Below are positions 705-40,407 of a stretch of DNA of 40,407 bases, piece after piece. Both the position numbers and the translations under genes were made by a program. A model generated the notes under the pieces. The model saw only the letters and a program-made list of their open reading frames with translations. It was not told where the DNA came from and searched no databases. The DNA comes from Planctomycetaceae bacterium. GTDB taxonomy: Bacteria; Planctomycetota; Planctomycetia; Pirellulales; Pirellulaceae. The stretch's first letter is position 1, and every line of letters begins with the position of its first letter. The DNA is taken from contig CANHVO010000019.1 in assembly GCA_947463915.1 (NCBI GenBank), positions 1 to 40,407 on the forward strand, read 5' to 3'.

Positions 705-784
705 AATTAGCCGATGGGCGTAAGCCCCGGTTCCCTGGGGCCCGACCTTGGTCGAGAACCGCGGCTACCAACGATCCGCTAATC
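705..784. repeat. Intergenic palindrome, family A copy 1
   Basis: The left arm (705-732, AATTAGCCGATGGGCG then AAGCCCCGGTT) pairs imperfectly with the right arm (757-784, AACCGCGGCTACCAACGAT then CCGCTAAT). The centre, GACCTTGGTCGA, is itself palindromic. Related copies lie at 17932-18017 (most complete), 24686-24732 (half copy, opposite orientation) and 16021-16089 (diverged). It overlaps the longest possible reading frame of the next gene, which argues against a start at 748. Confidence 0.8.
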
Positions 785-843
785 AGTTCATTGCACCCAA
801 AGACTCTAGCGCAAATGCTTGGCGGTCTGGAATTGGAGCCAAA

Positions 844-3717: not shown

Positions 3718-3729
3718 AGCATAAACAAA

Positions 3730-5154
3730 ATGATACACCGACGCTCTTTTCTCCATTCAACCGCATGTGGCTTTGGTTCTTTGGCCACGGCATCGCTTCT
3801 TTCGCAATGGTCGAGTCGTTGCGATGGGGCGACCAACCCTTTCATGGGAGCAAATGGGCTGCATTTTCCAGCCAAGGCAAAGAGAGTGATTTTTTTGTTC
3901 ATGCAGGGTGGGGTGAGCCAAGTCGATTCGTTTGATTACAAACCGTTGTTGGCGAGTCGCGATGGCGAAATGGTTGGCTTCGACGATGCTCGTGAGTTTG
4001 CGAACAAGGGGACTGTTGGCAGCCAGCAACGAGTCATGAAATCGCCATGGACCTTCAACCAGTACGGACAGTCGGGCCGTTGGGTATCGGAGCTGTTCCC
4101 CAAGATGGCTGAACACGTCGATCGAATGGCGTTCGTGCATAGCATGCATACCGATGGCGTTGCGCACGGGCCAGCCACCTTGTTTTTGCACTCGGGCTCA
4201 CAAAACTTTATTCGGCCGTCCATGGGCTCTTGGATCCAATACGGTATCGGATCGGAAAATGAGAACCTGCCAGGTTTCGTTTCCATTTCGCCTTCGATTG
4301 GAAACGGAGGCGCTCGCAACTATGGGAGCGCATTCCTGCCTGCCAAATATCAAGGAACGCCTATTGGGAAAGTAGGGAACGACGCATTAACTATCGATCA
4401 CTTGCAATCACTCGGCTTGTCGAACGGAGATTCTAGCCGTTCGAGGTTGGATCAGATTCAAGCGTTGAATCAAATTCAGCTTGAGCAGCGAGCATCCAAC
4501 GACAGCGAACTCGATGCTGCGGTTCAGTCGTACGAAATGGCTTGGCGAATGCAAAACGCAGCCCCGGAGTTGTTAGACTTTTCGACCGAAACGGAGGAGA
4601 CGACCAAGCTTTACGGATTGGATCAAAAGGAGACCCAAGCTTACGGCCGAAAGTGCTTGTTGGCGCGACGACTTTGCGAGTCTGGTGTTCGATTTGTGCA
4701 AGTCAATTACGGAGACAACTCCGCCAATCCTGCTTGGGACCAGCATTCTAATTTACCGAAGCATGCTGAGCACGCTCGCGCGGTGGACCAGCCGATCGCC
4801 GGACTTTTGACCGATTTGGCGCAACGAGGATTGCTTGAAGACACGCTTGTTTGGTGGGGCGGGGAATTTGGTCGCGCTCCGTATGCGGAGAAAAATGGCA
4901 CGGGCAGGGACCACAATCCAGGCGGGTTCACGATGTGGCTAGCGGGTGGTGGCGTCCAGCCGGGCGTCGCATACGGTCGAACGGACGAATTCGGCCATTT
5001 GGCGATCGAAAACAAGGTCCATATGCACGATATGCACGCGACGATTCTGCATTTGTTGGGCATCGACCATGAAAAGCTGACATTTAAGCATGCCGGGCGT
5101 AATTTTAGGCTGACGGATGTGCATGGTAGGGTTGTTCGCGGCATCCTTTCTTAG
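3730..5154 (+). CDS. DUF1501 family exported protein (alkaline-phosphatase/sulfatase-like fold)
   Basis: A 474-aa protein with an N-terminal twin-arginine-like signal (RRSFLHS, then an alanine/leucine-rich segment), so probably Tat-exported and folded before export. The body has the DUF1501 hallmarks: FLFMQGGVSQVDSFDYKP near the N-terminus, HSMHTDGVAHGPAT, RFVQVNYGD, GGEFGRAP followed by GRDHN, GGFTMWLAGGG, and a C-terminal HMHDMHATILHLLGI. These histidine/aspartate clusters suggest a metal-binding alkaline-phosphatase-superfamily core, but no substrate is established. It starts 12 bp after the cytochrome/DUF1549 gene, the usual planctomycete pairing, and is likely co-transcribed. It resembles the second DUF1501 protein at 22862-24346 throughout. 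Confidence 0.93.
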   Translation: MIHRRSFLHSTACGFGSLATASLLSQWSSRCDGATNPFMGANGLHFPAKAKRVIFLFMQGGVSQVDSFDYKPLLASRDGEMVGFDDAREFANKGTVGSQQRVMKSPWTFNQYGQSGRWVSELFPKMAEHVDRMAFVHSMHTDGVAHGPATLFLHSGSQNFIRPSMGSWIQYGIGSENENLPGFVSISPSIGNGGARNYGSAFLPAKYQGTPIGKVGNDALTIDHLQSLGLSNGDSSRSRLDQIQALNQIQLEQRASNDSELDAAVQSYEMAWRMQNAAPELLDFSTETEETTKLYGLDQKETQAYGRKCLLARRLCESGVRFVQVNYGDNSANPAWDQHSNLPKHAEHARAVDQPIAGLLTDLAQRGLLEDTLVWWGGEFGRAPYAEKNGTGRDHNPGGFTMWLAGGGVQPGVAYGRTDEFGHLAIENKVHMHDMHATILHLLGIDHEKLTFKHAGRNFRLTDVHGRVVRGILS

Positions 5155-22852: not shown

Positions 22853-22861
22853 GGATTTAAG

Positions 22862-24346
22862 ATGGCAATGAATTCAAAGAGAATCAACTCGCGTGACATG
22901 GATTCGGCCAATCGGCGAGCATTCTTGTCGAACTGCGGCATGGGATTTTCCAGTTTGGCGTTGGGGGCTATGCTCGCTCGTGATGGAGTCGGTAGAGTCA
23001 ACGATCCGCAAGACTGGCAACCACCAAACGGCCAACCGCATTTCCCGCCGAAGGCCAAGAGTGTTATCTGGCTCTTCATGAACGGCGGCGTCTCACAAGC
23101 GGAGTCGTTTGACCCAAAGCCGGAACTGACCAAGTACGCGGGCAAATCGATTAGCGAAACACCCTTTGCCGATGTTCAAAATCCGGAGAAGCTGAAGCTA
23201 GCCCGCGTCACGGTGATCAACGATGCCAACGGCCAGCAGAGGAATAAACTGTACCCATTGCAAGTTGGCTATCGCAAGTATGGCGAATCAGGCATTGAGA
23301 TGAGCGACTGGGTGCCGAACATTGGCAGCTGTGCCGATGATCTAGCGGTGATTCGTTCGATGTGGACAACGGATGACAATCACGGTGCACAAACCCAGTT
23401 TCATTCGGGACGGCATATGCTCGACGGCGAATTCCCTACGCTGGGTGCATGGGTCCATTATGGTCTCGGCTCGCTCAATGATAATTTGCCCCAATTCATT
23501 TCGATGGGGAATCGCGAATACTGGAATATCAAGGATGGGCATTATCTTGGTCCGGCTCACGACGCTGTGCCGATTCGAGTCGATCCTGCGAACCCACTCG
23601 ACTTTGGCAAGCCCGCTGTTGGTCTTTCCGAAGCCGAACAAAAATTAGGGTTCGATCTGGTCAACGGATTGAATCGACTACGGGCCGACGCATATCCGAA
23701 TGACTCGGCTTTGGAAGCTCGCATCAAGGCATATGAGTTAGCCTTTCGCATGCAGACCTCAGTACCGGAGTCGCTCAACTTTCAAGAGGAAACGGCCGCG
23801 ACTCATGAGATGTATGGATTGAATGAACCAGAGACAAAGGAATTCGGCATGCAGATGCTGGCAACTCGCCGGCTAGTAGAACGTGGTGTTCGCTTCATCC
23901 AAGTGCAGCATGGTGCTGGCGGTGCAGGTGCGTGGGACGCGCATGGTGGTCTCAAGGCGAATCATGAAAAGAACTTCAAGGCCGTTGACAAGCCGATTGC
24001 TGGTCTCCTAAAAGATCTGAAACAGCGAGGTCTTTTGGATTCAACCTTGGTCGTCTTCGCCAGCGAGTTTGGTAGAACCCCAGGGACGCAAGGTTCAGAC
24101 GGTCGCGATCACCATATCTTCGGCTTCTCAGTATGGATGGCGGGTGGTGGAGTCAAAGGTGGTGTCGTGCACGGTGCGACCGATGAAATTGGTTTTCATG
24201 CAGTCGAGAATCGGCATTACGTAACCGATATCCATGCCACGATTCTTAAACAACTTGGGCTGGATTCTCGCAAGCTGGAAATTCCAGGCCGCAAACGGCT
24301 GGATATCGATCACGGGAAGGCGATCGACGAGATCTTGAAAACTTAG
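22862..24346 (+). CDS. DUF1501 family exported protein, second copy
   Basis: A 494-aa protein. The N-terminus carries a Tat-like signal ([20 protein letters not shown]). Family landmarks are [75 protein letters not shown] and [13 protein letters not shown]. The start has GAGGA at 22851-22855, overlapping the TGA of the upstream cytochrome gene; this decides the ATG at 22862 over the second ATG at 22868. It pairs with the cytochrome protein as at 3730-5154, supporting a fixed two-protein unit. What the putative metal centre acts on is unknown. Confidence 0.93.
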
Positions 24347-24732: not shown

Positions 24733-24922
24733 TCTAGGAAACAGTGGGTCAGGAACGCATTGGAGGGAAAAGGAGGCGAGGTTATGATGTTGCCGTTTTG
24801 ATGGGCAAATTAGGTTGTTCCTTCGGATTTCAACATTGCCAACCATCTAAAATTGCATCGGGCCTGCCAATTTTTTCTTTTGTCACTTACCAATCGAAAT
24901 CAGATCTGTGGGAAACATTTCA

Positions 24923-27900
24923 ATGTCGACGAATCGTTTTTGCAATGTCATCAGTCGTGCGAACAAAAGATTGGCGTTCGTAGTCGCCCTGGCACTAGCC
25001 ACCCAGTTCAGTGTCTCATCCCGCGCAGACGACACGAAGCAACGCCCTGCACCCGAGATGCCTAAATTGGCCGAAAAGTCTGCCGATGCGGCAACAGCGA
25101 TCGGTTCATTCAAGCGGCCCGCTGGGATGACTTGCGAGCTGTTTGCTGCCGAGCCGATGGTCGGCAACCCCGTTGCGTTTACGATCGACAATCGGGGTCG
25201 AGTCGTTGTTTGCGAAAGTTACCGACAAGAAAATGGCGTCACGGACAACCGAGGTCACGACGAAAAGTGGCTTTCTGCAGACTTGGCTGCGGTAACCGTA
25301 GCAGATCGAATTCGTTATCACCGCGAGCAGTTGGGGGACAAAGCCGCCGACTATGAAAAGCAAATCGACTTGCTCCGCATGCTGATCGATACCGATGGAG
25401 ACATGAAAGCAGACAAGGCTACGGTGTACGCATCTGGCTTTAATAGCATCGAAGAGGGGACCGGAGCGGGCGCCTTGGTTCGAGGCGACACCATTTACTA
25501 CACGAACATTCCAAAGCTCTGGGCGTTGGTCGACAAAGATAAAGATGGAGTTGCCGACGAAAGAATCGTGCTGGCCGATGGCTTTGGTGTGCGTGTTGCA
25601 TTCCGAGGACACGATATGCATGGGCTTATCATGGGCCCCGATGGTCGAATCTATTTCTCGATCGGTGATCGTGGATACCATGTCGAAACACCGACGGGAC
25701 TTCTTGCCAATCCAGAGAGTGGTGCCGTCTTTCGCTGCGAGCTCGATGGTTCCAATCTAGAAGTTGTGGCGACTGGCCTTCGCAATCCTCAAGAACTTGC
25801 TTTCGATGACTATGGAAACTTGTTCACGGGTGATAACAATTCGGATTCAGGGGACAAGGCTCGTTGGGTGTACATTGTCCGCGGTGGCGACACAGGCTGG
25901 CGAATGATGTATCAGTACATATCCGACCGCGGCCCCTTCAATCGGGAAAAGATCTGGTATCCGTTTAGCGATGAATCGCCGGTCTACACGGTCCCGCCGA
26001 TTGCCAATATTGCAGATGGTCCATCTGGGCTAGCTTGTTATCCAGGGACAGGTTTAACAGCCTCGGAAGGAACTCCCGACCAATTCCAGAATGCGTTTTT
26101 CCTATGTGATTTTCGCGGGCAGTCTTCCAATAGCGGGGTCCGAATGGTCAAAGTCGACCCAAAGGGCGCCTTCTTTGAACTCAAAAGCAACGAGCAATTT
26201 GTCTGGAACATCCTGGCAACGGACGTTGAGTTTTCACCCGACGGTGGCATGTACGTAAGCGACTGGGTCAACGGATGGAAGGGTGAAAACAAAGGGCGGA
26301 TCTATCGTTTTGCGGACCAAAAAGCCCAGGCGACTGAACTGGTAAAGTCCACTCGTATTTTGTTGCGAGACGGCATGAAGTCGCGGAACAAGGGCGAGTT
26401 AGGCGACTTGCTCGGTCATGCCGATCGACGTGTTCGATTCGAAGCGCAATGGGAGCTTGCAAGCCGTGGTGACGGCGACATCTTGGAGACAGCAACTCAG
26501 TCAGCGAACGCTTCCACCATCAAGCAACTTCATGGTGTCTGGGGCTTAGGGCAACTGTTGCGTGCGAAGCCGAAGGATGCCAAGGTAACCAATGCACTCG
26601 TCAAATGCCTTTCCCACTCGGAGCCGATGGTCGTATCGCGTGCCATGGAAGCACTAGCCGATGCTGGCTACAAGCCTGCCCAGCCTGTGTTGGAACCACT
26701 GCTCAAGCATGAGTCCGCGGTGGTAAAGTCAGCGACCTGCATGGCGGTCGGACTACTTGGTTCCGACGATTCCATGCCTAGCATCATCCGCATTCTAGAG
26801 GAGAACAACAATCAAGATCCGATCTTGAGACACGCGGGCATCATGGGCTTGGTTGGTGTGAAGGACTACGAAAAGCTGAAAGCTTTAAAGAATCATGCGA
26901 GTGAAGCGGTTCGAGTAGCCGCGGTGGTCGCGCTTCGCAAACAAGCCAACCCGATCGTTTTCGAATTCCTCAAGGACAGCTCGCCAAAGGTCAGAAAAGA
27001 AGCCGTCCTCGCTATCCACGATGTGCCTCAGTTGCATAGTCAACTGCCTGCTCTTGCGGAACTCCCTTTAGCAGCCGATACGGAAGAGCCCGTAGTCAAT
27101 CGTGTTCTTAACTCGAACTTCCGATTAGGTCGCGAACAAGATGCGAATCGGCTTGCAAGTTTTGCGGCACGTGCAGGCGGCAAGGACTCGATGCGGATTG
27201 AGGCCCTTGAGATGCTCGCAAATTGGGCAAAACCTGGCGACCGTGACCGTGTTATGAATCGACATCAACCTCTGAGCGATCGCAGTGCAGACTTTGCTAC
27301 GAAAGCACTGAAGGCTCGTATCGAGGAGCTGGCTGCAGCCCCCCAAGCGGTTAGCGATAAGTTCCTAGAGGTAGGAGCGAAAGCAGGGTTGACCGAGATC
27401 GCCAAGATACTAACTGTCACTGCCAAGGATCCAAAATCGGAGGGGACGCGACGTGGCGCTGCCATCCGGGCCTTGATCAATCTTGCTCCTAATGCCATCC
27501 AATCTATGATCCCTGACTTCGTTCGCGATGCCGATGTGGATGTGCGAATGGCGAGTATGGCCTTTCAAGTTGCGAAGACTCCAAATGACGCAACGAAAAG
27601 CTTGAAGCAAGCGATCAGCTCGAAAATCGTTCGAGAACGTCAGTTTGCTTGGGATCAACTTGCAATCATGAACAACGAAGAGTCAAAAGAATTGGTCGCA
27701 AAGGGAGTTGAGGGGTACCTGAATGGGACGTTGGAACGCGATTGCTGGATCAATGTTGTCGAGGCAGCCAAAGGTAAACTCAAGGGGGATTTGGAGAAGC
27801 GACTCCAGGAAAAGGTTGCCGTTCTCGATAACCTGAAGGAGTCAGAGCCCAAGAGGCACTATGAAGATTGCGTTGACGGCGGAGATGTCGCACAAGGTCG

Positions 27901-28354
27901 AACGCTCTTTTTCACTCGAAGCAGTTTATCCTGTGTTCGATGCCATAAGGTTGGAAACACAGGTGGCGAAGTCGGACCGAACTTGAGCGCACTCGGCACG
28001 CAAAAGACGCGTGAGTATTTGCTGGAGGCGATCGTAGCTCCAAATGCGGCCATTGCACAAGGGTTCGAAACTGTTGTCATTTTGGACGAGGATGGAAAGA
28101 CCGTTTCGGGAATTCTCAAGTCCGAAGATGATACCAATTTGACTTTGATGGACGCGCAAGGTGCACTCATCAAAATCCCGAAGGATAAGATCGACGAACG
28201 CAAAAAAGGCCAGTCCTCGATGCCGATAGATCTGCTGAAGTATCTCAATAAGCGAGAATTGAGAGATCTTGTGGCTTACCTCGCAACGCTAGACGGCAGC
28301 CCTGGGGCTGTAGCGAGCCCAAATGAAGCACAAGGTGGTCACAAGTTGGAGTAG
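24923..28354 (+). CDS. Large exported PVC-type haem protein: dehydrogenase-like propeller, HEAT repeats, cytochrome c
   Basis: About 1143 aa from the ATG at 24923 (a GTG at 24908 is in frame but less likely; GGGAA lies upstream of the ATG). A signal peptide is present (RLAFVVALALATQFSVSSRA). Residues about 45-480 match the Pirellula/Verrucomicrobium membrane-bound-dehydrogenase-type propeller (GMTCELFAAEPMVGNPVAF, GLRNPQELAFDDYGNLF, YVSDWVNGW). Residues about 480-900 form HEAT-like repeats (RRVRFEAQWELA, ILRHAGIMGLVGV). The C-terminal cytochrome c has CVRCH at about 1004-1008 and continues GGEVGPNLSALG, a Met-rich axial region, and ends YLATLDGS. A PQQ-like sugar/alcohol dehydrogenase role passing electrons to haem is family-based inference; no substrate is known. 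Confidence 0.92.
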   Translation: MSTNRFCNVISRANKRLAFVVALALATQFSVSSRADDTKQRPAPEMPKLAEKSADAATAIGSFKRPAGMTCELFAAEPMVGNPVAFTIDNRGRVVVCESYRQENGVTDNRGHDEKWLSADLAAVTVADRIRYHREQLGDKAADYEKQIDLLRMLIDTDGDMKADKATVYASGFNSIEEGTGAGALVRGDTIYYTNIPKLWALVDKDKDGVADERIVLADGFGVRVAFRGHDMHGLIMGPDGRIYFSIGDRGYHVETPTGLLANPESGAVFRCELDGSNLEVVATGLRNPQELAFDDYGNLFTGDNNSDSGDKARWVYIVRGGDTGWRMMYQYISDRGPFNREKIWYPFSDESPVYTVPPIANIADGPSGLACYPGTGLTASEGTPDQFQNAFFLCDFRGQSSNSGVRMVKVDPKGAFFELKSNEQFVWNILATDVEFSPDGGMYVSDWVNGWKGENKGRIYRFADQKAQATELVKSTRILLRDGMKSRNKGELGDLLGHADRRVRFEAQWELASRGDGDILETATQSANASTIKQLHGVWGLGQLLRAKPKDAKVTNALVKCLSHSEPMVVSRAMEALADAGYKPAQPVLEPLLKHESAVVKSATCMAVGLLGSDDSMPSIIRILEENNNQDPILRHAGIMGLVGVKDYEKLKALKNHASEAVRVAAVVALRKQANPIVFEFLKDSSPKVRKEAVLAIHDVPQLHSQLPALAELPLAADTEEPVVNRVLNSNFRLGREQDANRLASFAARAGGKDSMRIEALEMLANWAKPGDRDRVMNRHQPLSDRSADFATKALKARIEELAAAPQAVSDKFLEVGAKAGLTEIAKILTVTAKDPKSEGTRRGAAIRALINLAPNAIQSMIPDFVRDADVDVRMASMAFQVAKTPNDATKSLKQAISSKIVRERQFAWDQLAIMNNEESKELVAKGVEGYLNGTLERDCWINVVEAAKGKLKGDLEKRLQEKVAVLDNLKESEPKRHYEDCVDGGDVAQGRTLFFTRSSLSCVRCHKVGNTGGEVGPNLSALGTQKTREYLLEAIVAPNAAIAQGFETVVILDEDGKTVSGILKSEDDTNLTLMDAQGALIKIPKDKIDERKKGQSSMPIDLLKYLNKRELRDLVAYLATLDGSPGAVASPNEAQGGHKLE

Positions 28355-29632: not shown

Positions 29633-32600
29633 ATGCGGTGCATGTGTGCTATCACTAGTTGTTTAACCCTTTATTGCCGTTGCCTAAACATCGCACCTTT
29701 CCAATTCCTCTTGCTTGCCCTGTTTGCGACGGATTGCCTACTCTCACAAGCCACAGCGCAGATTCCAGATTGGGCGGACAAAAGACTCACGACTCGAGAT
29801 GGTTTGGTTCTTTGGTTGGACGCAAACGCAATTCCAGCGGCTAGGAAAGCCAACAATTCGACTTCGATTCCGAACCGTGGTGCATTAGAGCAATGGCAAG
29901 ATGGTTCTGGGACTAGACGGCATTTCCTACAGGCATCTGCAGGAGATCAACCGCAATTGGTTCAAATGGGTGACGCTTGGAGCGTTCGCTTTGATGGCGA
30001 GTCAGATCACATGCGCTGCCTGTCTGTGCCGGGTAAGATCGAAGCGGCAACTTTGTTCCTAGTGGCAGCCCCGCATGACAATGTTGGCGAGTTTCGCGGT
30101 CTCTTTGCTACCAATGCGCCCCAAAAACGCGACTACGAATCGGGTCTAACAGTCGATCTTGGTGCGGCCCCGACCGCCTCGCTAGAATACGTCAACGTCG
30201 AGGGCTATGGTTTCGGTGGTGCTCGGAGTTTGTTGAAGGGCACTCAGCGCTTTGGCACGCTGCAAATATTGGAAACGGTTTTCGATCCACAGAGTCGCAA
30301 AGTCACTTTGTCGATCGATGGCAAACAACCTGGCGAGCGAACTTTCGAACCGAAAGGTCTCTCCATCGACCAACTGACTTTGGCTGCTCGGTTTTACACG
30401 AATGGTCCGGGGGAACACGTAGTGCGTGGGCCGTTGAAATGCGATATCGCAGAAGTACTCTTCTACGATCGCGTTCTCAGCGACGATGAAAGAGCCTCCG
30501 TTCGCGCTTACCTCTCAGCCAAGCATGCTAATTTGGCCGATCGGTTGCCAGCCGAATTGAAATTGACGCCGGGCGTCACTCTGGTGAAAGCAGAAAACCC
30601 GCCCTTGATTCAGATGTTCGTGCCAGGGTTCACGGTCCGCGAGTTGCCTGTCGAGTTAACCAATGTCAACAACGTTCGCTATCGTGAAGATGGCCGACTG
30701 ATGACCTTGGGGTACAACGGCGACCTGCACCTCCTGGCTGATACCGATGGCGATGGAGTCGAAGACAAAGCAGAGTTGTTTTGGAAGAACGAAGGGAGCT
30801 TACGAGGACCACTTGGGATGCTCTTGACTCCCCCTGGATACGCAAAAGGTCGCGGAGTCTTTGTACCGAGCAAAGGGAAAGTTTCTCTCATCGTCGATAC
30901 CAACGGCGACGACAAAGCGGACGAGGAAATCGTGATCGCAACCGGTTGGAAAGAGATCGCTCAAAACGTCGATGCCGTTGGAATCACCATGGACAAAGAG
31001 GGTGCTATCTATTTTGGTCTTGGGACGGCCAATTATGCGAACGCTTACATGGTCGACGAGTCAGGCAAAGCCGAATATGACATCAAGAGCGAACGGGGAA
31101 CGGTCCAGCGCATTTCACCGGATTTCAGCAAGCGAGAAACCGTCTGTACCGGTATCCGTTTTCCCATTGCGTTCGCGTTTAACGATTCGGGGGATTTGTT
31201 TTGTTCCGAACAAGAAGGGGCAACTTGGCTTCCCAACGGGAACCCGCTCGACGAGCTTTTGCATATTCAAGCCGGTCGTCACTATGGGTTTCCCCCTCGA
31301 CATCCTCGCCATAATCCAGACGTGATCGATGAACCATCCACCTTCGATTACGGTCCGCAGCATCAGTCAACTTGTGGAATGGTCTTCAACAGCTCAGTGA
31401 ACGGAGGACCAATCTTCGGACCTGCGGCGTGGGCCAAGCAAGCTCTTGTTTGCGGTGAGTCACGCGGGAAACTTTGGCGCACCCAGTTGTTCAAAACGGA
31501 TGCAGGATACGTCGCGTCGACTCAGCTATTTGCGGGTCTCCAAATGTTGACGATCGACGGGTGCGTTGCGCCGGATGGCGACTTTGTTGTGGCGTGTCAC
31601 AGTGGACCTCCCGATTGGGGAACTGGACCAACAGGGATTGGGAAATTGTTTCGGATCAAGTACTCCGATCCATCCGCGCCGCAACCGGTGGCGACGTGGT
31701 CGGAATCCCCGAACGAAATACGAATTGCCTTTGACCGTCCGATCGACCCGCTCAAGATGCGAAATTTGGTCGAGCAAGTCAAAGTGGAATTCGGTGAATT
31801 TGTGCGAGCTGGCGATCGATTTGAAACACTGGTTCCTCCCTACGCCGTGGTCAAACGTCAACTTGCAACTCCACGCTTCGAATTGCCTGTAGCTGGAGCC
31901 TCGCTAACCAGCGACCTAAGAACCTTGATCGTAAGCACGGCGACCATGAAAGCCAATTCGCACTATGCTGTCACCTTGCCTCGCCCCGAAGAATCTCAGA
32001 AATCGGACGCAAAAACTACGAAGCATTCGCAAATCGATCTCGATTTATCGCTGACAGGTGTGCAAGCAACATGGACGCCTAAAAACGCTTTGCAAGTTGC
32101 CTTAGTTAACACCACAGGCTGGCTGCCGCACCTCAATTTGCAGGTGGCTCGGGAGTTCACTCAAGGCAGTTCACAGCACGATGACTTGTGGTCTGCCATG
32201 GAATCGCCGGGCGAATTGAAACTTCGAACGAGCCTTGATCTGCACAACCTGTTGCGTCCGGTCGTCCAACCTGGCTCCAAGATCGATTACGAGTGGCCTG
32301 CTGAGTCGATCACGCTGGTTCTCTCCTCGCCCCAACCCCTCGCGGTTTCATCTTCTCTCGGGAAAATAGAATCGCAGTTTAGCAATGGCGTTCACGTTGT
32401 TCGATTAACATGCTCTGGTGACTCCGCAGCACTGGTGGACCTTGAGATCAAGCTGACGAAGTCTACCGATTTGAAGCCGCAACTCCACGTCTCCGTACAC
32501 ACAGCCGAAGATCCCCGTGATCGACCGTTGCCTTTGCATCGATTCTTTATGCCTTGGGTAAAATCCAAAGAAGCGACCCAGCTTAACGATGACAAGCCAA

Positions 32601-33823
32601 TGAAGATTGCTGAGATCGAGGGGGGCAACTGGGGGCTAGGACGCCGCGTGTTCCACAGCGAGGCTGCCGGATGTTTTAAGTGTCATGCCATGGGGGGCGT
32701 GGGGGCCAGGATAGGTCCTGATCTCTCAAACCTAATCCACCGCGACTACGCCTCCGTGTTGCGCGACATTGTCAATCCAAGCTTCGCCATTAACCCCGAC
32801 TACATCGGGCACATGATTATGATGAGCGATGGCCAAGTGCTGACAGGGGTTTTACGCGATGAAGCCGGGCAGTTGATTTTGGGGGACGAAAAAGGAAACT
32901 CGACCAAGATCGTTCGGTCGGAAGTCGATCAGATGAAGCCTGCGAAATTATCGGTCATGCCTACGGGCTTGGCGGAAAAACTGTCTAGGGAGCAATTGCG
33001 CGATTTGATGACCTACTTGCTGACAGCGCCACCGAGAATGCCGCTCGAAGGACCGCTCCAGGCACCGCCGCTCCGTTCTCAAGCCGAATTAGCAGCGGTC
33101 TTGGCTGGCTCAACTCCATTACCGAAAGAGCTCAAGCCGCTAAAAATCGTTTTGGTGTCGGGCAAAAAGGATCACGGCCCCGGCGAACACGACTATCCAG
33201 CTTGGCAGATTCAGTGGGGCCAATTAATGGCAGCAGCACCCAATGTCGACGTGAGTGCCGCGTGGGATTTCCCTAGTGAGGAACAGCTAGCGACCGCTGA
33301 CTCTCTGATCTTCTTTCAGAAGGGAGCATGGAATGACGATCGAGCGAAGAAACTGGATGCGTTTCAAGCTCGCGGCGGTGGTTCGGTTTACATTCACTGG
33401 GCAGTCAATGGGGACGATCGAGTTGCAGACTTTTCGAAGCGAATTGGTCTGGCGTCCAAAGGGGGCAGCATTGGTTATCGACACGGGCCGTTGACGCTCG
33501 ACATGCACAATACCGATCACCCGGTCCTACGCAACATCGATCGGCTAAAACTGTACGACGAGAGTTATTGGAAGCTCACCGGAGACGTGAAGAACGTAGC
33601 ATTGCTCGCCACGAGCACGGAGGAAGGGAATGCTACGCCACAGGTTTGGGCGTACGAAAAAGGAGCGGGCCGCGTTTTTGTCAGTATTCCGGGGCATTAC
33701 AGTTGGACATTCGACGATCCGATCTTCCGAGTTCTATTGCTTCGCGGGATCGCTTGGACGGCTCGCGAGCCAGTCGACCGGTTTAACGAACTCGCGCCAC
33801 TTGGTGCCCGACTCTCGAAATAA
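29633..33823 (+). CDS. Giant exported fusion: LamG-like, dehydrogenase-like propeller, cytochrome c, ThuA-like
   Basis: About 1396 aa from the ATG at 29633 (a TTG at 29588 is also in frame). A hydrophobic signal (FQFLLLALFATDCLLSQATA) lies near the N-terminus. Residues about 50-310 are a LamG/concanavalin-type region (GLVLWLDANAIP, WSVRFDGESDHMRC, IAEVLFYDRVLSDDERA). Residues about 320-690 are a propeller of the PVC dehydrogenase type (FTVRELPVELTNVNNVRYRE, LLADTDGDGVEDKAELFW, GIRFPIAFAFNDSGDLF). Residues about 690-980 are a beta-rich linker. The cytochrome c has CFKCH at about 1014-1018 and GARIGPDLSNL. Residues about 1169-1390 are ThuA-like (KIVLVSGKKDHGPGEHDYPAW, GGSVYIHWAV, HYSWTFDDPIFRVLLLRGIAWT). 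ThuA-type domains occur in carbohydrate oxidation contexts. The function of the fusion is unknown. Confidence 0.9.
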   Translation: MRCMCAITSCLTLYCRCLNIAPFQFLLLALFATDCLLSQATAQIPDWADKRLTTRDGLVLWLDANAIPAARKANNSTSIPNRGALEQWQDGSGTRRHFLQASAGDQPQLVQMGDAWSVRFDGESDHMRCLSVPGKIEAATLFLVAAPHDNVGEFRGLFATNAPQKRDYESGLTVDLGAAPTASLEYVNVEGYGFGGARSLLKGTQRFGTLQILETVFDPQSRKVTLSIDGKQPGERTFEPKGLSIDQLTLAARFYTNGPGEHVVRGPLKCDIAEVLFYDRVLSDDERASVRAYLSAKHANLADRLPAELKLTPGVTLVKAENPPLIQMFVPGFTVRELPVELTNVNNVRYREDGRLMTLGYNGDLHLLADTDGDGVEDKAELFWKNEGSLRGPLGMLLTPPGYAKGRGVFVPSKGKVSLIVDTNGDDKADEEIVIATGWKEIAQNVDAVGITMDKEGAIYFGLGTANYANAYMVDESGKAEYDIKSERGTVQRISPDFSKRETVCTGIRFPIAFAFNDSGDLFCSEQEGATWLPNGNPLDELLHIQAGRHYGFPPRHPRHNPDVIDEPSTFDYGPQHQSTCGMVFNSSVNGGPIFGPAAWAKQALVCGESRGKLWRTQLFKTDAGYVASTQLFAGLQMLTIDGCVAPDGDFVVACHSGPPDWGTGPTGIGKLFRIKYSDPSAPQPVATWSESPNEIRIAFDRPIDPLKMRNLVEQVKVEFGEFVRAGDRFETLVPPYAVVKRQLATPRFELPVAGASLTSDLRTLIVSTATMKANSHYAVTLPRPEESQKSDAKTTKHSQIDLDLSLTGVQATWTPKNALQVALVNTTGWLPHLNLQVAREFTQGSSQHDDLWSAMESPGELKLRTSLDLHNLLRPVVQPGSKIDYEWPAESITLVLSSPQPLAVSSSLGKIESQFSNGVHVVRLTCSGDSAALVDLEIKLTKSTDLKPQLHVSVHTAEDPRDRPLPLHRFFMPWVKSKEATQLNDDKPMKIAEIEGGNWGLGRRVFHSEAAGCFKCHAMGGVGARIGPDLSNLIHRDYASVLRDIVNPSFAINPDYIGHMIMMSDGQVLTGVLRDEAGQLILGDEKGNSTKIVRSEVDQMKPAKLSVMPTGLAEKLSREQLRDLMTYLLTAPPRMPLEGPLQAPPLRSQAELAAVLAGSTPLPKELKPLKIVLVSGKKDHGPGEHDYPAWQIQWGQLMAAAPNVDVSAAWDFPSEEQLATADSLIFFQKGAWNDDRAKKLDAFQARGGGSVYIHWAVNGDDRVADFSKRIGLASKGGSIGYRHGPLTLDMHNTDHPVLRNIDRLKLYDESYWKLTGDVKNVALLATSTEEGNATPQVWAYEKGAGRVFVSIPGHYSWTFDDPIFRVLLLRGIAWTAREPVDRFNELAPLGARLSK

Positions 33824-33921: not shown

Positions 33922-35559
33922 ATGAGCAAGAATTTTCGTAGCCATCTTGGCGTATTGTTCGCATTGATATTCAGCCCTATCTGTTTTGCTCAAGAACCTG
34001 AGTCGCCAACCGTCGCAGCGGTTCGAAAAAACAAAACTTTTCCTAACGATTGGTTCGGCAATTGGAAAGGTGAGGTTCAAAGTCGTAGCCCCAGCGGCAA
34101 GCAAGACGCGTTTCAAATGGAGTTGAGGGTTGCTCCGACGGAAACACCGGACCGCTTTCATTGGACCATCATCTACGAGGGGGTACAGGGACGAAGCGAA
34201 CGACTCTATACGCTGGTCGCCAAAGATCCGGACAATGGCCTATTCGTTATCGACGAAAACAATGGCATCTTGTTGGACGCGACCCTGATCGGTGACACTC
34301 TAACGGAACACTTTACTGTCGGCGGACAGCGCATTTGGACGACGAGCAGATTGCAACAGACCGTCTCTGGACGCGAGATTCATTTCGAATTGTCGACGGC
34401 CAACGATACTCAAGCCAACAAGTCAGGCGGGAAGGACGGAATCCCGGAGGTTAGTAGCTTACGACTGAGCAATCAGCAGCGAGCGATTCTCAAACCAGTT
34501 GCAAACAACGAGGCACCTAAGCCAGAGGCTAGCAGCAATACCTACGCATGGAAAAAGCTCGAGACCGAAGCGTATCGAGGAAAGCAAGATGATATCTACT
34601 TCGTCAATGAGCGACTGGGCTGGTACGTCAACGGTTCTGGCAAGATCTTTAAGACGACCGATGCGGGCGAAAATTGGACGATGCAGTTGCACAAGCCAGG
34701 AACGTTTTTCCGATGCATCGCCTTTGTGGATGAGATGAGAGGTTTTGCTGGGAATATTGGGCCTGGTTATTTCCCCAATGTTTCCGATAACGTACCACTT
34801 TATGAAACATCGGATGGGGGAACGACATGGACGGCAGTCACGAACATCGAAGGGCCGCCGGTTGTTGGTCTTTGCGCCATGCAAGTGCTTCGAGAGAAGT
34901 TTGTGAACGCTGGAAATTTGGATACGCGAATTCGTATCATTGGAGTGGGGCGAGTTGGCGGCCCAACTGCAATGTTGTATTCCGATGACCTTGGGAAATC
35001 ATGGCAACAAATCGATATTCAGGCCAAAGCAGCGATGGCCTTTGACGTGCATTTCTTTAATCGCAATGAAGGCTACATTGCCGCAGCCACCAACGCAGAC
35101 CCGGCTCAGTCCAACGCGTTGATCCTATCAACGATTGACGGCGGCAAAACTTGGACGAACGCTTGGCAATCGACAAGATCCTTTGAGTTAACTTGGAAAA
35201 TCGCATTCCCAACGCGCGAAGTTGGCTACGTTACGATTCAATCTTACAATCCGGACCTTGCAGTCAAAGAACGTTTTGTTGCCAAGACAACGGACGGCGG
35301 GAAGACTTGGGCTGAGATGCCATTGGTCAGCGACCACAAAGTGCGAGAGTTTGGCGTCGGATTTTTGGATGCGCGAACCGGCTGGGTGGGAGCGGTTCCA
35401 AACGGATTCCAAACGATGGATGGCGGAGCAACTTGGCAGGCAGTCGAAATGGGGAATGCAGTGAACAAGATTCGGATCCTTGAAACCGATTCAGGCCATG
35501 TTGGGTATGCAATCGGAATGAATGTCCATCGGATGGAAGTGCCAAAACCCAAGAAGTAA
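33922..35559 (+). CDS. Secreted BNR/Ycf48-like propeller protein with N-terminal beta-barrel-like domain
   Basis: A 545-aa protein with a signal peptide (LGVLFALIFSPICFAQ). Residues about 35-165 are a beta-rich domain (FGNWKGEVQSRSPSGKQDAF, FHWTIIYEG, LTEHFTVGGQRIW) that reads like a small lipocalin/DUF1579-type barrel. Residues about 200-545 form a propeller with repeated Asp-box/BNR turns: TTDAGENW, TSDGGTTW, SDDLGKSW, TIDGGKTW, TTDGGKTW and TMDGGATW. This matches the Ycf48/photosystem-II-assembly-factor-like group, which in non-photosynthetic bacteria are secreted proteins of unknown function. No sialidase catalytic residues were seen. It is downstream of the ThuA fusion gene, 98 bp apart and on the same strand, so co-transcription is possible. 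Confidence 0.88.
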   Translation: MSKNFRSHLGVLFALIFSPICFAQEPESPTVAAVRKNKTFPNDWFGNWKGEVQSRSPSGKQDAFQMELRVAPTETPDRFHWTIIYEGVQGRSERLYTLVAKDPDNGLFVIDENNGILLDATLIGDTLTEHFTVGGQRIWTTSRLQQTVSGREIHFELSTANDTQANKSGGKDGIPEVSSLRLSNQQRAILKPVANNEAPKPEASSNTYAWKKLETEAYRGKQDDIYFVNERLGWYVNGSGKIFKTTDAGENWTMQLHKPGTFFRCIAFVDEMRGFAGNIGPGYFPNVSDNVPLYETSDGGTTWTAVTNIEGPPVVGLCAMQVLREKFVNAGNLDTRIRIIGVGRVGGPTAMLYSDDLGKSWQQIDIQAKAAMAFDVHFFNRNEGYIAAATNADPAQSNALILSTIDGGKTWTNAWQSTRSFELTWKIAFPTREVGYVTIQSYNPDLAVKERFVAKTTDGGKTWAEMPLVSDHKVREFGVGFLDARTGWVGAVPNGFQTMDGGATWQAVEMGNAVNKIRILETDSGHVGYAIGMNVHRMEVPKPKK

Positions 35560-35878: not shown

Positions 35879-36538
35879 TTACTTGACTACCAGTTCATTC
35901 TTGACTCGATCGATCCCCGGTTCGAAGGACAAGAGCTGGGCCAATAGCTCGGCCTCGCGATTTGACGAGACGGTCCCGCGAAGTACGGCCGTGGTGCCTG
36001 CCATGGACACGTTGGCGCGACCTTTGGAGAATTCTGCAATCCTTTCCGTCGCTGCCGCGCTGGCAGGTCGTATGCTTGGCAACTCGTTTGATGTTTCGCT
36101 ATCCGATTCAAACGTGAGTCGAGGGTAGTACATTCCTTTTGCCGGTTGAGGAGGCAGTGGTCGATTGATGCGATCCGCTTTCGCTGTCTCAAGCCTTAAA
36201 GTCTCAGCTGTCGTCGGAACTCGTCCCAATCCAATGGCTTGACCGGACCCCACAAAGCCCTTCAAGTCCGTTCGGTTTGAGCCAACGAAATCCTGACGCG
36301 AGCGATTCCCCCGCAGATACCGGGCGTTTGCTCCTTGTAAGCCAGAGGTGGCACCTACGGAGGCGCCACCAGCTGACGTAGCGGCGGCAGCAGTGCCGGC
36401 GCGTTGTTGCTGTAGTGACAAAGCGGGGGAACCGAGGGTTCGATTCCCGATTAACTGTGCGGATACATTGGGCAGATTGATCGCATAGGCCGCTACCAGG
36501 CATAGCACCTTAAGCAAAGTTTGCCGAAAAGATTTCAT
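35879..36538 (-). CDS. Exported BON-domain protein, last gene of the secretion-like operon
   Basis: About 219 aa from the ATG at 36538, which overlaps the TGA of the upstream gene (ATGA); the longer frame to 36604 would overlap that gene by 70 bp and lacks a signal at its start. A signal peptide is present (MKSFRQTLLKVLCLVAAYAI then NLPNVSAQ). The middle is low-complexity (Ala/Gly/Ser/Arg, GTAAAATSAGGASVGATSG). The C-terminus, ERIAEFSKGRANVSMAGTTA and then VLRGTVSSNREAELLAQLLS followed by FEPGIDRVKNELVV, is a BON domain. BON domains bind membranes or lipids and occur beside secretin systems. Here it is translationally coupled to a PilO-like gene, suggesting a periplasmic part of the same machine. 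Confidence 0.8.
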   Translation of the reverse strand: MKSFRQTLLKVLCLVAAYAINLPNVSAQLIGNRTLGSPALSLQQQRAGTAAAATSAGGASVGATSGLQGANARYLRGNRSRQDFVGSNRTDLKGFVGSGQAIGLGRVPTTAETLRLETAKADRINRPLPPQPAKGMYYPRLTFESDSETSNELPSIRPASAAATERIAEFSKGRANVSMAGTTAVLRGTVSSNREAELLAQLLSFEPGIDRVKNELVVK

Positions 36539-37461
36539 CGTTGCTCTCCTTTTTCTGGTTTGGGCGCACACACTTGGCCAATAGTTTGCCCCAAGTGGAG
36601 CCAATGCGGTTCATCGTTAACACGAACCAGCACTTGATTGTTTAGCACTTCTAAAACCGAAATGTCATGCAGGGCGACCGGAAGCTGATTGCCTGCAGCA
36701 ACGGTCTTGGTTGTCCCTCTCGAATCGATTCGGAACCAAGCCTGCGCGACACCTTCTCGATTCGATGTGATCGCTTTCAACTCGATTTCGTACAATGCTT
36801 TCGCAAAACCTCTCGCAAAAAGATTTCGGCGCACAAGGTCGTCGAAGGTGCTTTTCGCGACAGAGGAATCGTCCACGAGCTGCCAATCACCAAGAGTGTC
36901 TTTATTGGTTGAGGCAGACAAGCATAGTACTTCGATCGTCAAATCGGCATCCAGTCTCCCTTCGTTGCCAACGGGATTCAATGCGATGGAGCGGATCTTG
37001 TGCAAATGCCCTGCTTTGCGAAAATCGTTCAGGAACGACGCAAGTTTGCTAAGGGAGGCTTGACCTCGCAACGAGAAATTGATGCGATGACCTATTGTCT
37101 GACGCTTTCCTTTTTTCGTTCGCGATCGAATCTCGACACGAACAGGCTGGGCCGCATCGACCGAAGCCGAAGTCAACTCATTGGCCTCGACCAAATTCAA
37201 AAGCCATTGCTGATAGAGCGAACGAGCGAGTTGAGGATCGTCTGGCAAAGCTCTGGCGGCATAAGCATCCAGTCGCTTGCCTTGCTTCTGCGCAGCGAGT
37301 TGTTCAGACTTGGCAGTGTTCAGTTTGCTGGTGAGATCGTCTAACTCAGCCGTTATTTGTAGATGGGGTTGTTCGATCCAACTGCGGTAGAGCGAGTCCA
37401 GACCGTACAGTCCGAATACCACTGCTCCGGCAACCATTAGCCATTTGATACGTGGGCTCAT
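36535..37461 (-). CDS. PilO/GspM-like inner-membrane protein with PilP-like C-terminus
   Basis: A 308-aa protein. One membrane helix (IKWLMVAGAVVFGLYGLDSL, residues 5-24) is followed by a coiled coil (ELDDLTSKLNTAKSEQLAAQ) and an alpha/beta domain around residues 90-185 (HRINFSLRGQASLSKLASFL, IRSIALNPVG) like the ferredoxin-like domain of PilO/GspM. The C-terminal 90 residues (FDDLVRRNLFARGF, VAQAWFRIDSRGTTKTVAAG, ISVLEVLNNQVLVRVNDEPHWLHLGQTI) resemble PilP/GspC-type beta domains. It would bridge the inner-membrane platform and the secretin. Its ATG overlaps the TGA of the PilM/N-like gene and its own TGA overlaps the BON gene's ATG. The assignment rests on layout and weak motifs. Confidence 0.72.
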   Translation of the reverse strand: MSPRIKWLMVAGAVVFGLYGLDSLYRSWIEQPHLQITAELDDLTSKLNTAKSEQLAAQKQGKRLDAYAARALPDDPQLARSLYQQWLLNLVEANELTSASVDAAQPVRVEIRSRTKKGKRQTIGHRINFSLRGQASLSKLASFLNDFRKAGHLHKIRSIALNPVGNEGRLDADLTIEVLCLSASTNKDTLGDWQLVDDSSVAKSTFDDLVRRNLFARGFAKALYEIELKAITSNREGVAQAWFRIDSRGTTKTVAAGNQLPVALHDISVLEVLNNQVLVRVNDEPHWLHLGQTIGQVCAPKPEKGEQR

Positions 37462-39164
37462 TTTGGCCCCACTGGTGATGGGGTAGCGGTTTCAACATTG
37501 GGTTGAACAGCGGTGTTTTCAGCGGTGTTTTCTGGGGTGCTGTCTGAGTTGTCTTTGGAAGGAACGTCTGGCTCTTTTTGGTCTGCGTTCGGCGACTCGT
37601 TGGCTTGTATGGGTTTATCCGATGGCGAGGCGGGTTCTGCCGGTGGAGGTTCTGCCGGTGGAGGTTTTGGACCAAATGTGTTTTGCTTCTGCGCTTCGAT
37701 TGGAAACGAGACTCTAGTTTCGAACTGCCAAGGGTACTCCGCTGAGGAAGCATTCTGGCTGATTTGTTTGCTTGTTGCCGAATACTTAGCGCTGCGAATT
37801 CGCGACTCCAATTGCGATATGAATTCTTGCTCTGCAACTTGAACCGAGAGATCGATGGTTGCGGCGTTAGGTCCAGCCGATGCCGTCAATCGTCGAACTG
37901 TCGCATCTTGACCATCGGGCAATCTCCGAGATAGATCGTTGAGCTCTGCCAACCAATCGACTTGGTCTGACATCCAGGCTTGAACCGCTTGAACTTGATC
38001 GGATTTCTCCTGGTACTTTGCCGCGACTTTCTTGGCGTTGTCCAACTCGATGCGGATATCATCGACTTCGCGCTGCAATTGCCAAACATCGGACAACATA
38101 AAGTACAGACCAATTCCAACCACAGATGCTACGCCAACGCCTAAGCCTACCCAACGTACCATTGGGTTCGCGGGCTTGGGAGCCCGCTTGGGAGCGAGCA
38201 AATTGACTGGCAGCGCGTTGTTGACAAAGTCCCAAGCAGCACCTGCGTTGGCTGCCGATCGCGTAGGAGAATCAGCATTCTGATCCTTGTTTGAGGAATC
38301 GAATTCCCAATCCGACAGCGGATCGATGACATGGATCGAAGATTCGCCCCGTTCCTCGAGGGCTTTGGCAACTTGACCGGCAGCATCACTGGTCGCAAAA
38401 ACGTACCAATCTAGTTTAAGCTCTGCCGTCTCTTGGGTGAGCAACGTCAAGCATCGTTGCATTTCCATCCAAATCTGTTCTGCAACGCGTGCCGAATCAT
38501 CGGTGCTCAATCGAATCGTACGCAACAAGATAGGATCAGAGCCGCGGCAGACAGCCAGTTCAACTTCACCGGTATATAGATGAACGGACACAACTAACGT
38601 GTCGCTGGAGATATTCCGTCGGCGAAGGATACTGAGGGGAGCAAGATGTCGCGAGCAGATGGCGGCAAGTCGAAACGCCGTTTCATCCACTTGCTTCTTA
38701 AGCGACTGAAGCTCCTTGGCTGGCAATGCAAACGCCAAAACTTGGCTGGCTGAATTCGCGTCCACTTTGGAATTGGCGACGACCAAGTAGTCGACGATTG
38801 GCGGTTCCTCGGTCTCGCCCAATTGCTGCTCGACTTCGCTCGCGATCAAGCCTGGAAGTTCGCTTTCCTCGGCGGGAGGCAGATTGAGCGTTGGTAAGTC
38901 CAACTCCGGTCTCGACAAGAGCACGACGAGTCGTTGAACCGTAATGCCTTGATCCCGAAAGTAGTCCGACAAAGCGAGCAGAGGATTGCCTAGGTTCGCA
39001 TGGCTAATTGCTCCGAAATCTTTCGAACCAATCCGTCTTGACTTTGGAGAGACGACTAAGAAATAGATCTGCTCTCGATCCCAATGGACGATCGCGATTC
39101 GACCTGTCCCTGGCTTTCGGGCAGTGCTTTGTCGGAGTCTCGTTATGCGTTCCAATAGGTTCAT
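37458..39164 (-). CDS. PilM/GspL-like actin-fold protein fused to a PilN-like membrane part and a proline-rich tail
   Basis: About 568 aa from the ATG at 39164, which overlaps the upstream TGA; a longer frame to 39209 is rejected for that reason. Residues about 20-290 have the PilM/GspL cytoplasmic actin-like character (GRIAIVHWDREQIYFLVV, LPGLIASEVEQQLGETEEPP, VVSVHLYTGEVELAVCRG, RTIRLSTDDSARVAEQI). A membrane helix lies at about 337-357 (VGLGVGVASVVGIGLYFML), then a coiled coil and a PilN/GspL periplasmic-like domain (VRRLTASAGPNAATIDLSVQ). From about 497 the tail is Pro/Glu/Ser/Asn-rich and disordered, with a DNA-level tandem repeat (GGTTCTGCCGGTGGA twice). It should anchor the assembly ATPase in the inner membrane. 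Confidence 0.8.
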   Translation of the reverse strand: MNLLERITRLRQSTARKPGTGRIAIVHWDREQIYFLVVSPKSRRIGSKDFGAISHANLGNPLLALSDYFRDQGITVQRLVVLLSRPELDLPTLNLPPAEESELPGLIASEVEQQLGETEEPPIVDYLVVANSKVDANSASQVLAFALPAKELQSLKKQVDETAFRLAAICSRHLAPLSILRRRNISSDTLVVSVHLYTGEVELAVCRGSDPILLRTIRLSTDDSARVAEQIWMEMQRCLTLLTQETAELKLDWYVFATSDAAGQVAKALEERGESSIHVIDPLSDWEFDSSNKDQNADSPTRSAANAGAAWDFVNNALPVNLLAPKRAPKPANPMVRWVGLGVGVASVVGIGLYFMLSDVWQLQREVDDIRIELDNAKKVAAKYQEKSDQVQAVQAWMSDQVDWLAELNDLSRRLPDGQDATVRRLTASAGPNAATIDLSVQVAEQEFISQLESRIRSAKYSATSKQISQNASSAEYPWQFETRVSFPIEAQKQNTFGPKPPPAEPPPAEPASPSDKPIQANESPNADQKEPDVPSKDNSDSTPENTAENTAVQPNVETATPSPVGPK

Positions 39165-40407
39165 GGTTTTGAATCGGCCAGTTGCTCGATGGAAAAGCCT
39201 CGGTCCCAAGGATGCCAGACTTTTTTATTTCGCAATTGTGTTGGGCTTTGACAAGCGTCAATCGTGGCCGTCATCCGGTAGACAGCGCTCTGATTGTCAC
39301 GATATCCGACGGCCTGTACCGAATAGACATCGCTGCGGAAGGTCAGGTAGGGTTCAAGTTCTTTCAGTTTGGCAATATCGACGGTATCCAGCAACCAAGT
39401 CACAGTGTCGAGCGTCTGTGGAGTCGCTGAAGGGTTATTCGATGCGTTGCGATTTTGAACAATTCGCTGCGCCAGGGCTAAGTCCAAGCCGGGGACTCCC
39501 GCGAGAACTTCCACGGTCGCCTCCGACACGTCGATCCGGCCTTCTGAAACCAAAAGACCGTTCACCGTTACGTCGTCGATCAACCGTTCAAGGTAATTGC
39601 GAACCGAGGCCAAGTCACTTGAAAACGGATTGCGAATGGTCCTTTTTGTAAGAGTTGCCGAATTCTTGGGACCGCTTACGCCGACTGTAGCGGGCAGTTC
39701 GACTACGGCCCCGACCAAATCGAGCGGACTTCGGAACGAGTACACTGCTGCTTTGCTAAAATCAGGCTGCCAATCCTGCACAATCGTTGCGGAAGTATTT
39801 TGAGCTGATGCCGCTCCAGCCGTTCCAATTGCCGAACTGGAAACTGCCGCCCCGGGCAAGTTGATCGTCGTGGGAGCTCCCAATTGACTGCTCGGTCCCA
39901 ATTGCCGCATGGCGATGACAAAGTTGGCCCAGTCCTGAGACCAAATCATCGATAGTGTTCGATGCAATGAACGCAAATCCGATTCGTTCAAATTTACCCG
40001 AGGCTGGCCGTTACTCCTAACGTTGCGGTGCCCGCTATACCAAGTCAAATACCGTTGAAGCGGTCGAAAAGCATTCGTTGAGCTTGACCTGTCCGTCGGC
40101 TGCACCGGTGCCGTACGATTTTGTCCCATTCTCTGGCTCTCGAAACGAATCTCCAATGGGTCCAGCTGGTAATTTTGATTCAGGTCGCCACCAAACCAAA
40201 CATGCTTAACATCATCTAACGAAGTGCGCTGTTCCGAGTTGCCGCCGCGATCGATCGGTTTGGATATTCCAAGTTCCATCAGCCAAGTATCTACCATAGC
40301 CTCATTCATACCGGGCAGTCCCAACAAAGTTAGCCTTGCATGTCCCGGTTTCATGCGGTCCCATGCGAGCAAAGTTGGGATGTGAAGTTTGGCTGACTCA
40401 TTTTCCA
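39161..40407 (-). CDS. GspK-like minor pseudopilin, 5' end cut by the right window edge
   Basis: The frame is open to the right edge; upstream codons read E-N-E-S-A-K-L-H-I-P-T-L-L-A-W-D-R, matching the GspK pattern of 'D/E-E-S-A/G-K-L-N' after the N-terminal helix, so the true start lies outside. About 415 residues are visible. Landmarks are LTLLGLPGMNEAMVDTWLME (the first helix-hairpin-helix-like region of GspK), LTWYSGHRNVRSNGQPRVNL (followed by NESD), VLAGVPGLDLALAQRIVQNR and the closing YLTFRSDVYSVQAVGYRDN. In type II secretion GspK caps the pseudopilus. Residues about 165-210 are an alanine/serine-rich insert. It heads the ATGA-coupled group followed by PilM/N-, PilO- and BON-type genes. 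Confidence 0.82.
   Translation of the reverse strand, partial: ENESAKLHIPTLLAWDRMKPGHARLTLLGLPGMNEAMVDTWLMELGISKPIDRGGNSEQRTSLDDVKHVWFGGDLNQNYQLDPLEIRFESQRMGQNRTAPVQPTDRSSSTNAFRPLQRYLTWYSGHRNVRSNGQPRVNLNESDLRSLHRTLSMIWSQDWANFVIAMRQLGPSSQLGAPTTINLPGAAVSSSAIGTAGAASAQNTSATIVQDWQPDFSKAAVYSFRSPLDLVGAVVELPATVGVSGPKNSATLTKRTIRNPFSSDLASVRNYLERLIDDVTVNGLLVSEGRIDVSEATVEVLAGVPGLDLALAQRIVQNRNASNNPSATPQTLDTVTWLLDTVDIAKLKELEPYLTFRSDVYSVQAVGYRDNQSAVYRMTATIDACQSPTQLRNKKVWHPWDRGFSIEQLADSKP

Follow-up and report, generated by a model that had tools for sequence, protein, structure and literature searches.

Modules of the fusion protein

The window analysed here is the whole stretch of 40,407 nucleotides at positions 1 to 40,407 of contig CANHVO010000019.1 (GenBank assembly GCA_947463915.1), from a Planctomycetaceae bacterium. 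Our subject is the gene at 29633-33823 on its forward strand, which encodes an apparently exported fusion protein of 1396 amino acids. The original prediction had read four modules in this one frame: a LamG domain, a dehydrogenase-type propeller, a CxxCH haem domain and a C-terminal ThuA domain. The unbroken translation, domain searches and recurrence in separate assemblies confirm this arrangement; many separate assemblies share the single-frame module order, which excludes both coincidence and misassembly as its cause. The names of all four modules are upheld at the level of the fold. Pfam and NCBIfam scans were complemented by a comparison of two AlphaFold models with solved structures, in which absence from the VIA lists does not exclude a family. 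The models cover residues 41-990 (mean predicted local distance difference test score, pLDDT, 82.6; model number plus 40 gives protein number) and residues 690-1396 (mean pLDDT 76.3; model number plus 689). Searching a viral fold library with them returned mostly LamG-type look-alikes.

The protein opens with a signal-peptide-like leader (residues 1-43; 29633-29761, forward strand, as for all features of the protein), in which a hydrophobic stretch is followed by ...QATAQ. Hydrophobic leaders also open many of its relatives, as read by eye from the alignment, and an alternative TTG start 45 bases upstream of 29633 could lengthen the protein by 15 residues. Behind the leader lies the LamG module (residues 45-312; 29765-30568), modelled as a concanavalin-type sandwich (model residues 10 to 270) that matches the arabinofuranosidase 1wd3 with Z 19.2 over 235 aligned residues. 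The Pfam scan of the whole protein gave no match for it at E 0.01, and the cut-out module reached 13.1 bits with Laminin_G_3 (PF13385), whose cut-off is 27.6. Among nine modules of the family, the window's included, only those of L067 (29.9 bits) and L058 (31.8 bits) scored above the cut-off; L050, L054, L061, L062, L066 and the window fell below it and L051 gave no match, whereas L133, a relative without ThuA, reached 36.8 bits. The family name is above threshold in relatives but not in the window protein itself.

The propeller (residues 318-690; 30584-31702) matches DUF7133 (PF23500) over residues 362-536 with 48.9 bits against a gathering threshold of 27. Its model (model residues 290 to 640) has the fold of the sugar dehydrogenases that use pyrroloquinoline quinone (PQQ), namely soluble glucose dehydrogenase (sGDH) and Asd: 7cgz with Z 20.0, 3a9g with Z 19.7 and the Asd structure 2g8s with Z 18.7. 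The propeller model TIGR02604 scored 56.4 bits in the NCBIfam scan, below its curated cut-off of 122.2; it matched 23 of the 23 rows of alignment A1 at E 0.001 (best E 6e-20; window 57.2 bits). Between propeller and haem domain, the original prediction had missed a linker region of about 310 residues (691-1000; 31703-32632), predicted to consist mostly of strands, for which the whole-protein Pfam and NCBIfam scans named no family. Neither did the domain scans find a HEAT match in the protein.

In the haem domain (residues 1001-1132; 32633-33028), TIGR02603 matches residues 1003-1130 with 94.4 bits against a curated cut-off of 68.15, and Pfam Cytochrom_C matches residues 1011-1043 with 22.6 bits against 21.3. 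The CFKCH attachment motif spans C1014-H1018 (32672-32686), and M1109 (32957-32959), the probable distal ligand, aligns with M292 of the diheme cytochrome Kustd1711, the ligand mutated there. C1014, C1017, H1018 and M1109 are present in 35/35 rows that reach them. The domain model is closest to Kustd1711 itself (7zs0, Z 15.0), matching its C-terminal domain; in that protein, His and Met are reported to ligate the haems, each haem iron has a Ca ion at a distance of 6.9 A, and the potentials lie near +350 mV (PMC11791136). Judged by these residues, the haem carrier looks functional, and the CxxCH domain of the original prediction stands. So does its C-terminal ThuA (residues 1165-1390; 33125-33802), which matches PF06283 over residues 1201-1376 with 81.2 bits against a gathering threshold of 33.4 and whose model is closest to ThuA-like proteins (4e5v, Z 21.1). 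The motifs GGGxVxxH, DExY and GH are intact and shared with 4e5v (total E 3.5e-8, although the match of the first stretch is weak by itself), and H1255, E1310 and H1355 are kept in 35/35 rows reaching them, so that this domain, too, looks functional.

We compared the shares of invariant positions across 35 rows, leaving out the near-identical L050 and using columns with at least 24 rows. Propeller (67/373) and ThuA (40/226) are similarly conserved, and both lie far above LamG (7/249) and the linker (11/304); the haem domain has 16 invariant positions in 132. What speaks for the carbohydrate binding originally claimed for LamG is its fold; against it stand its share of invariant positions, the smallest of all modules, and its loss from several relatives.

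Distribution of the family and repeated joining of ThuA

The fusion is widespread in the taxonomic order of the host and patchy in its phylum. Of 146 genomes of the order, 39 match the family at E <= 1e-60, and 18 of these have all modules in one frame (in G352 as two aligned pieces). The other matching genomes include four without LamG, two without ThuA and three in which the gene is broken over contigs; G454 seemingly carries LamG, propeller and haem domain without ThuA over two contigs, plus a separate ThuA gene. In the phylum, nine of 294 genomes match at the same threshold, four in full, own genome included. All modules stand in one frame in 17 of 22 loci from a species collection; LamG is missing in four (L057, L064, L068 and L070, of which L064 and L068 carry Verrucomicrobia titles), and in L069 a contig end cuts the fusion after the propeller. 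Nine of 40 close relatives (own genome counted) have all modules in one frame, the others being partial or broken; in G008 and G011 nothing but the start of LamG is missing, apparently because the contig ends there. Further forms of the family consist of haem domain and ThuA only or of ThuA alone, and L131 (5159-7696) and L132 (5448-8051) hold propeller-haem frames of the same family with neither LamG nor ThuA in frame. As to whether the arrangement is a common and already characterised one, it is common in the order, but no characterisation was found: among the matches listed from the open-licence literature there was no description of this fusion or of a ThuA-cytochrome joining, which does not imply absence from print.

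In a tree of ThuA domains (midpoint root, long branches to other ThuA, inner support low in places), the haem-ThuA forms (L082; L084, L085) are placed among the fused domains, and so is a clade of stand-alone ThuA (L083, L137, L140-L143). The tree, several of whose inner nodes have low support, suggests that both forms have lost the front part. It lacks L069, whose locus has no ThuA, and the own-genome loci L080 and L081, which gave no domain-profile match.

The genome of the window has ten ThuA places, and in three of them (L087, L088 and L089) ThuA stands in front of a DUF7133-haem pair, the opposite order to that of the fusion protein; L088 adds an F5/8 type C module and L089 an NPCBM, both of carbohydrate-binding type. 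The ThuA domains of these three are distant from that of the fusion, each pairing in the tree with a different unfused ThuA. Given these distant positions and the two orders of fusion, ThuA has probably been joined to propeller-cytochromes several times. Nothing else speaks as strongly for a common process of the modules as this recurrent joining, and the predicted cooperation between ThuA and propeller-cytochrome proteins gains support from the fact that a single genome has them fused in both orders. Across 15 genomes searched we found 7 to 12 ThuA matches per genome, many of them in short frames. Other ThuA frames were seen as well: L139 (5703-7718) has a 672-amino-acid frame in which a Lactonase-type propeller stands behind ThuA, and pairs of adjacent ThuA matches, at 33030-34424 of contig C112 in G034 and at 113108-114424 of contig C17 in G037, each lie inside a single long frame (1829 and 1751 amino acids, respectively).

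Propeller site and proposed function

We regard the fusion as a real, recurring family that probably processes sugars outside the cytoplasm; it can be placed with the PVC-type haem-binding proteins as a variant whose propeller is altered and whose C-terminus is a ThuA domain. We tentatively propose, at somewhat less than even confidence, an exported modular protein of oxidative sugar processing. LamG, which would be dispensable, may dock the protein to a glycan or surface. The propeller, with the sGDH fold and an altered pocket, would bind and probably oxidise a sugar or glycoside with the help of a cofactor; electrons would pass to the covalent haem c of TIGR02603, whose His/Met ligands are shown by alignment, and on to other cytochromes. 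ThuA would then convert the oxidised product, for instance by breaking the glycosidic linkage in a 3-keto glycoside. This step is proposed by analogy with rhizobia, where ThuA probably works with ThuB and disaccharides are handled as 3-keto derivatives. With other enzymes, oxidation of a sugar at C3, elimination, hydration and reduction offer a chemical precedent (PMC7676230).

A profile of the A1 half matched no solved sequence, so that sGDH residues had to be mapped indirectly through P0002, an ordinary dehydrogenase of PVC type that carries HEAT repeats and a haem domain and is encoded upstream on the same strand (window 24908-28354). When P0002 is aligned with sGDH, the first His of its motif HDMHG meets the catalytic His144, and in a BLAST alignment with P0002 the window protein has V446 there. 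Asp447 had been considered as a replacement for this His and was dropped, since the alignment puts V446 at the position and D447 beside it. A His stands two positions before V446 in six of 36 family rows (L029, L030, L058, L061, L064 and L065). The window's genome contains 23 DUF7133 stretches; when 19 other DUF7133 proteins were aligned as paralogues, 8 showed a His in the column of the P0002 residue and 7 had it one column earlier, leaving L098, L100, L101 and L114 with neither. That alignment left out five of the 23 loci: L110, L115 and L117, which are second pieces or a fragment, and L113 (P0002) and L116 (the window gene), which were entered separately.

A number of findings count against the proposed oxidation and its hand-over to ThuA. 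The catalytic-His position is Val in 34 and Ile in two of the 36 rows; directly behind the conserved Arg stands Phe, Tyr, Val or Trp in place of Asn. Designed six-bladed propellers (Pizza6) match with Z 18.1-18.5, nearly as well as the sugar dehydrogenases, which leaves the class of fold secure but gives the dehydrogenases no wide lead. PqqC had no match in the window's genome (G000) in two profile searches, in which no control genome matched either; in the order, ThuA is the sole part of the family seen at E <= 1e-60 in 12 of the 39 matching genomes; and L131, L132 and L133 are propeller-haem forms that lack ThuA. Only the closest relative among the 22 loci keeps the upstream dehydrogenase, and the PSD1 and DUF1501 families encoded nearby are too general to name a substrate. 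On the cofactor, PqqC was found below cut-off in 6 of 199 genomes of the phylum and above it in none (best G136, two pieces of about 110 bits), which indicates that the model can detect relatives; PqqE gave only a below-cut-off match in the window's genome, of a kind also given by 14/14 controls. Synthesis of PQQ by the host thus appears unlikely, and its uptake is possible.

The same propeller is nonetheless strictly conserved elsewhere. R509, which corresponds to the sGDH Arg, is kept in 36/36 rows, and within the loop region 527-582 (31211-31378) so are Q527 E528 G529, D540 E541, H550, H557 and Q576 H577, with C581 in 35/36. The invariant residues of the propeller include D447, R509, E528, H550, H557, H577 and H656. 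Parts of the loop were modelled with low confidence (pLDDT 43 for residues 531-540 and 41 for 571-580), which might fit a loop ordered by a ligand. Since its conservation equals that of ThuA and its loops hold Asp, Arg and His residues that do not vary, the propeller more probably has a changed active site than serves as an inert scaffold. The dehydrogenase type of the original prediction stands for the fold and DUF7133 but not for TIGR02604 or the catalytic His, and the oxidation in it stays a prediction.

This bears directly on the strongest rival, in which the propeller is a binding platform without catalysis, the haem stores electrons or helps in docking, and catalysis is left to ThuA, whose substrate is a ligand offered by the propeller. 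The uniform Val/Ile, set against a His in or near the column in 15 of 19 paralogues, favours it, as do the sub-threshold TIGR02604 score and the several genomes that have ThuA without a propeller. A scaffold, however, should not need a share of invariant positions equal to that of ThuA, and the haem ligands are intact; we consider such a platform rather unlikely. If the propeller were instead hydrolytic, similar to a lactonase or gluconolactonase, the lactonase-type structures lower in the match lists (3e5z, 2dg0; 8djf with Z 17.2) and the ThuA-Lactonase frame of L139 would fit, but the sugar dehydrogenases score higher (Z 18.7-20.0) and hydrolysis leaves the haem domain unexplained, which makes this highly improbable.

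A further possibility is that the modules share only a location or a class of substrate and hand over no intermediate, the fusion being a by-product of domain shuffling, a frequent event in planctomycete cytochrome proteins. The many sub-combinations of modules would be expected from shuffling, as would the numerous ThuA matches per genome with their many short frames; yet ThuA is fused with the propeller-haem pair in two orders, and the full fusion is the commonest form among the matching genomes of the order (18/39). We think this quite unlikely. Returning to oxidative sugar processing, an all-in-one oxidising machine, as originally predicted, is plausible and half supported: the recurrent fusion of ThuA with propeller-cytochromes, in both orders, points to a shared process and the haem carrier and ThuA look functional, while the oxidation step lacks its textbook residue and the forms with only ThuA or without it argue against an obligate machine. 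Its boldest version is an oxidative glycosidase in a single chain that works outside the cytoplasm and is NAD-independent. Its propeller would have a new Asp/Arg/His/Cys site in place of the PQQ-dehydrogenase one, perhaps with a metal, as was considered from the invariant His and Cys; it would oxidise a bound glycan and pass the electrons to the haem c of the same protein, and the tethered ThuA would cleave the keto-glycoside. This version seems to us very unlikely.

Compared with known systems, the fusion is closest to the PVC-type haem-binding CxxCH proteins (TIGR02604 plus TIGR02603; DUF7133), with which it shares propeller, linker and TIGR02603 haem domain. It differs from them in a propeller below the TIGR02604 cut-off, the missing HEAT match and the loss of the catalytic-type His, and it adds LamG in front and ThuA behind. 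With sGDH/Asd (PF07995) it has in common the fold and the conserved Arg, but not the catalytic His or the Asn after the Arg; the Pfam scan at E 0.01 gave no PF07995 match in the protein, and its genome has no PqqC match. Family, fold and motifs are those of ThuA, although here the domain stands behind a leader and is joined to a cytochrome domain. The haem domain fold and aligned His/Met ligands recall Kustd1711 of Kuenenia (7ZS0), which consists of cytochrome domains and a small 'nose' insertion and has no enzyme modules (PMC11791136). PSCyt/PSD proteins are likewise PVC cytochrome proteins, some with Laminin_G_3, but they are built from PSCyt/PSD domains and not from the propeller, TIGR02603 or ThuA; for those with carbohydrate-binding modules, a role in carbohydrate metabolism has been suggested, their function being unknown (PMC5615132).

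Planctomycetes have many propeller-cytochrome proteins without known function, as the 23 DUF7133 stretches of this one genome illustrate. Their repeated fusion with ThuA is a concrete clue, open to testing, that glycosides oxidised by some of them go on to ThuA. The present subfamily is in addition a variant provided by nature: the position of the textbook catalytic His is altered in all relatives seen, other residues of the pocket loops being strictly kept.

Gene neighbourhood

Neighbouring genes were compared in the 22 loci L050-L071, many of which are short, so that the counts are lower bounds. Directly downstream of the fusion gene, a protein of YCF48/BNR-repeat type (33922-35559) has no relative in these loci at E 1e-8. 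Two long frames on the reverse strand of the window (36535-37461 and 37458-39209) have no Pfam or NCBIfam match at E 0.01. Elsewhere, a DUF1552 gene lies behind the propeller-haem frame of L131 and a pectate-lyase-like gene is the neighbour in L138, cases too few to use. Upstream, a relative of P0002 with 94% identity is likewise found in L050, and at such identity in none of the other 21 loci. The window also holds two separate pairs in which a PSCyt1/PSCyt2/PSD1 cytochrome protein precedes a DUF1501 protein (748-5154 and 20126-24346), the first with Golvesin_C. DUF1501 relatives lie near the fusion gene in at least six of the 22 loci (L050, L055, L056, L057, L065 and L066), and PSD1 relatives in at least five of the same six.

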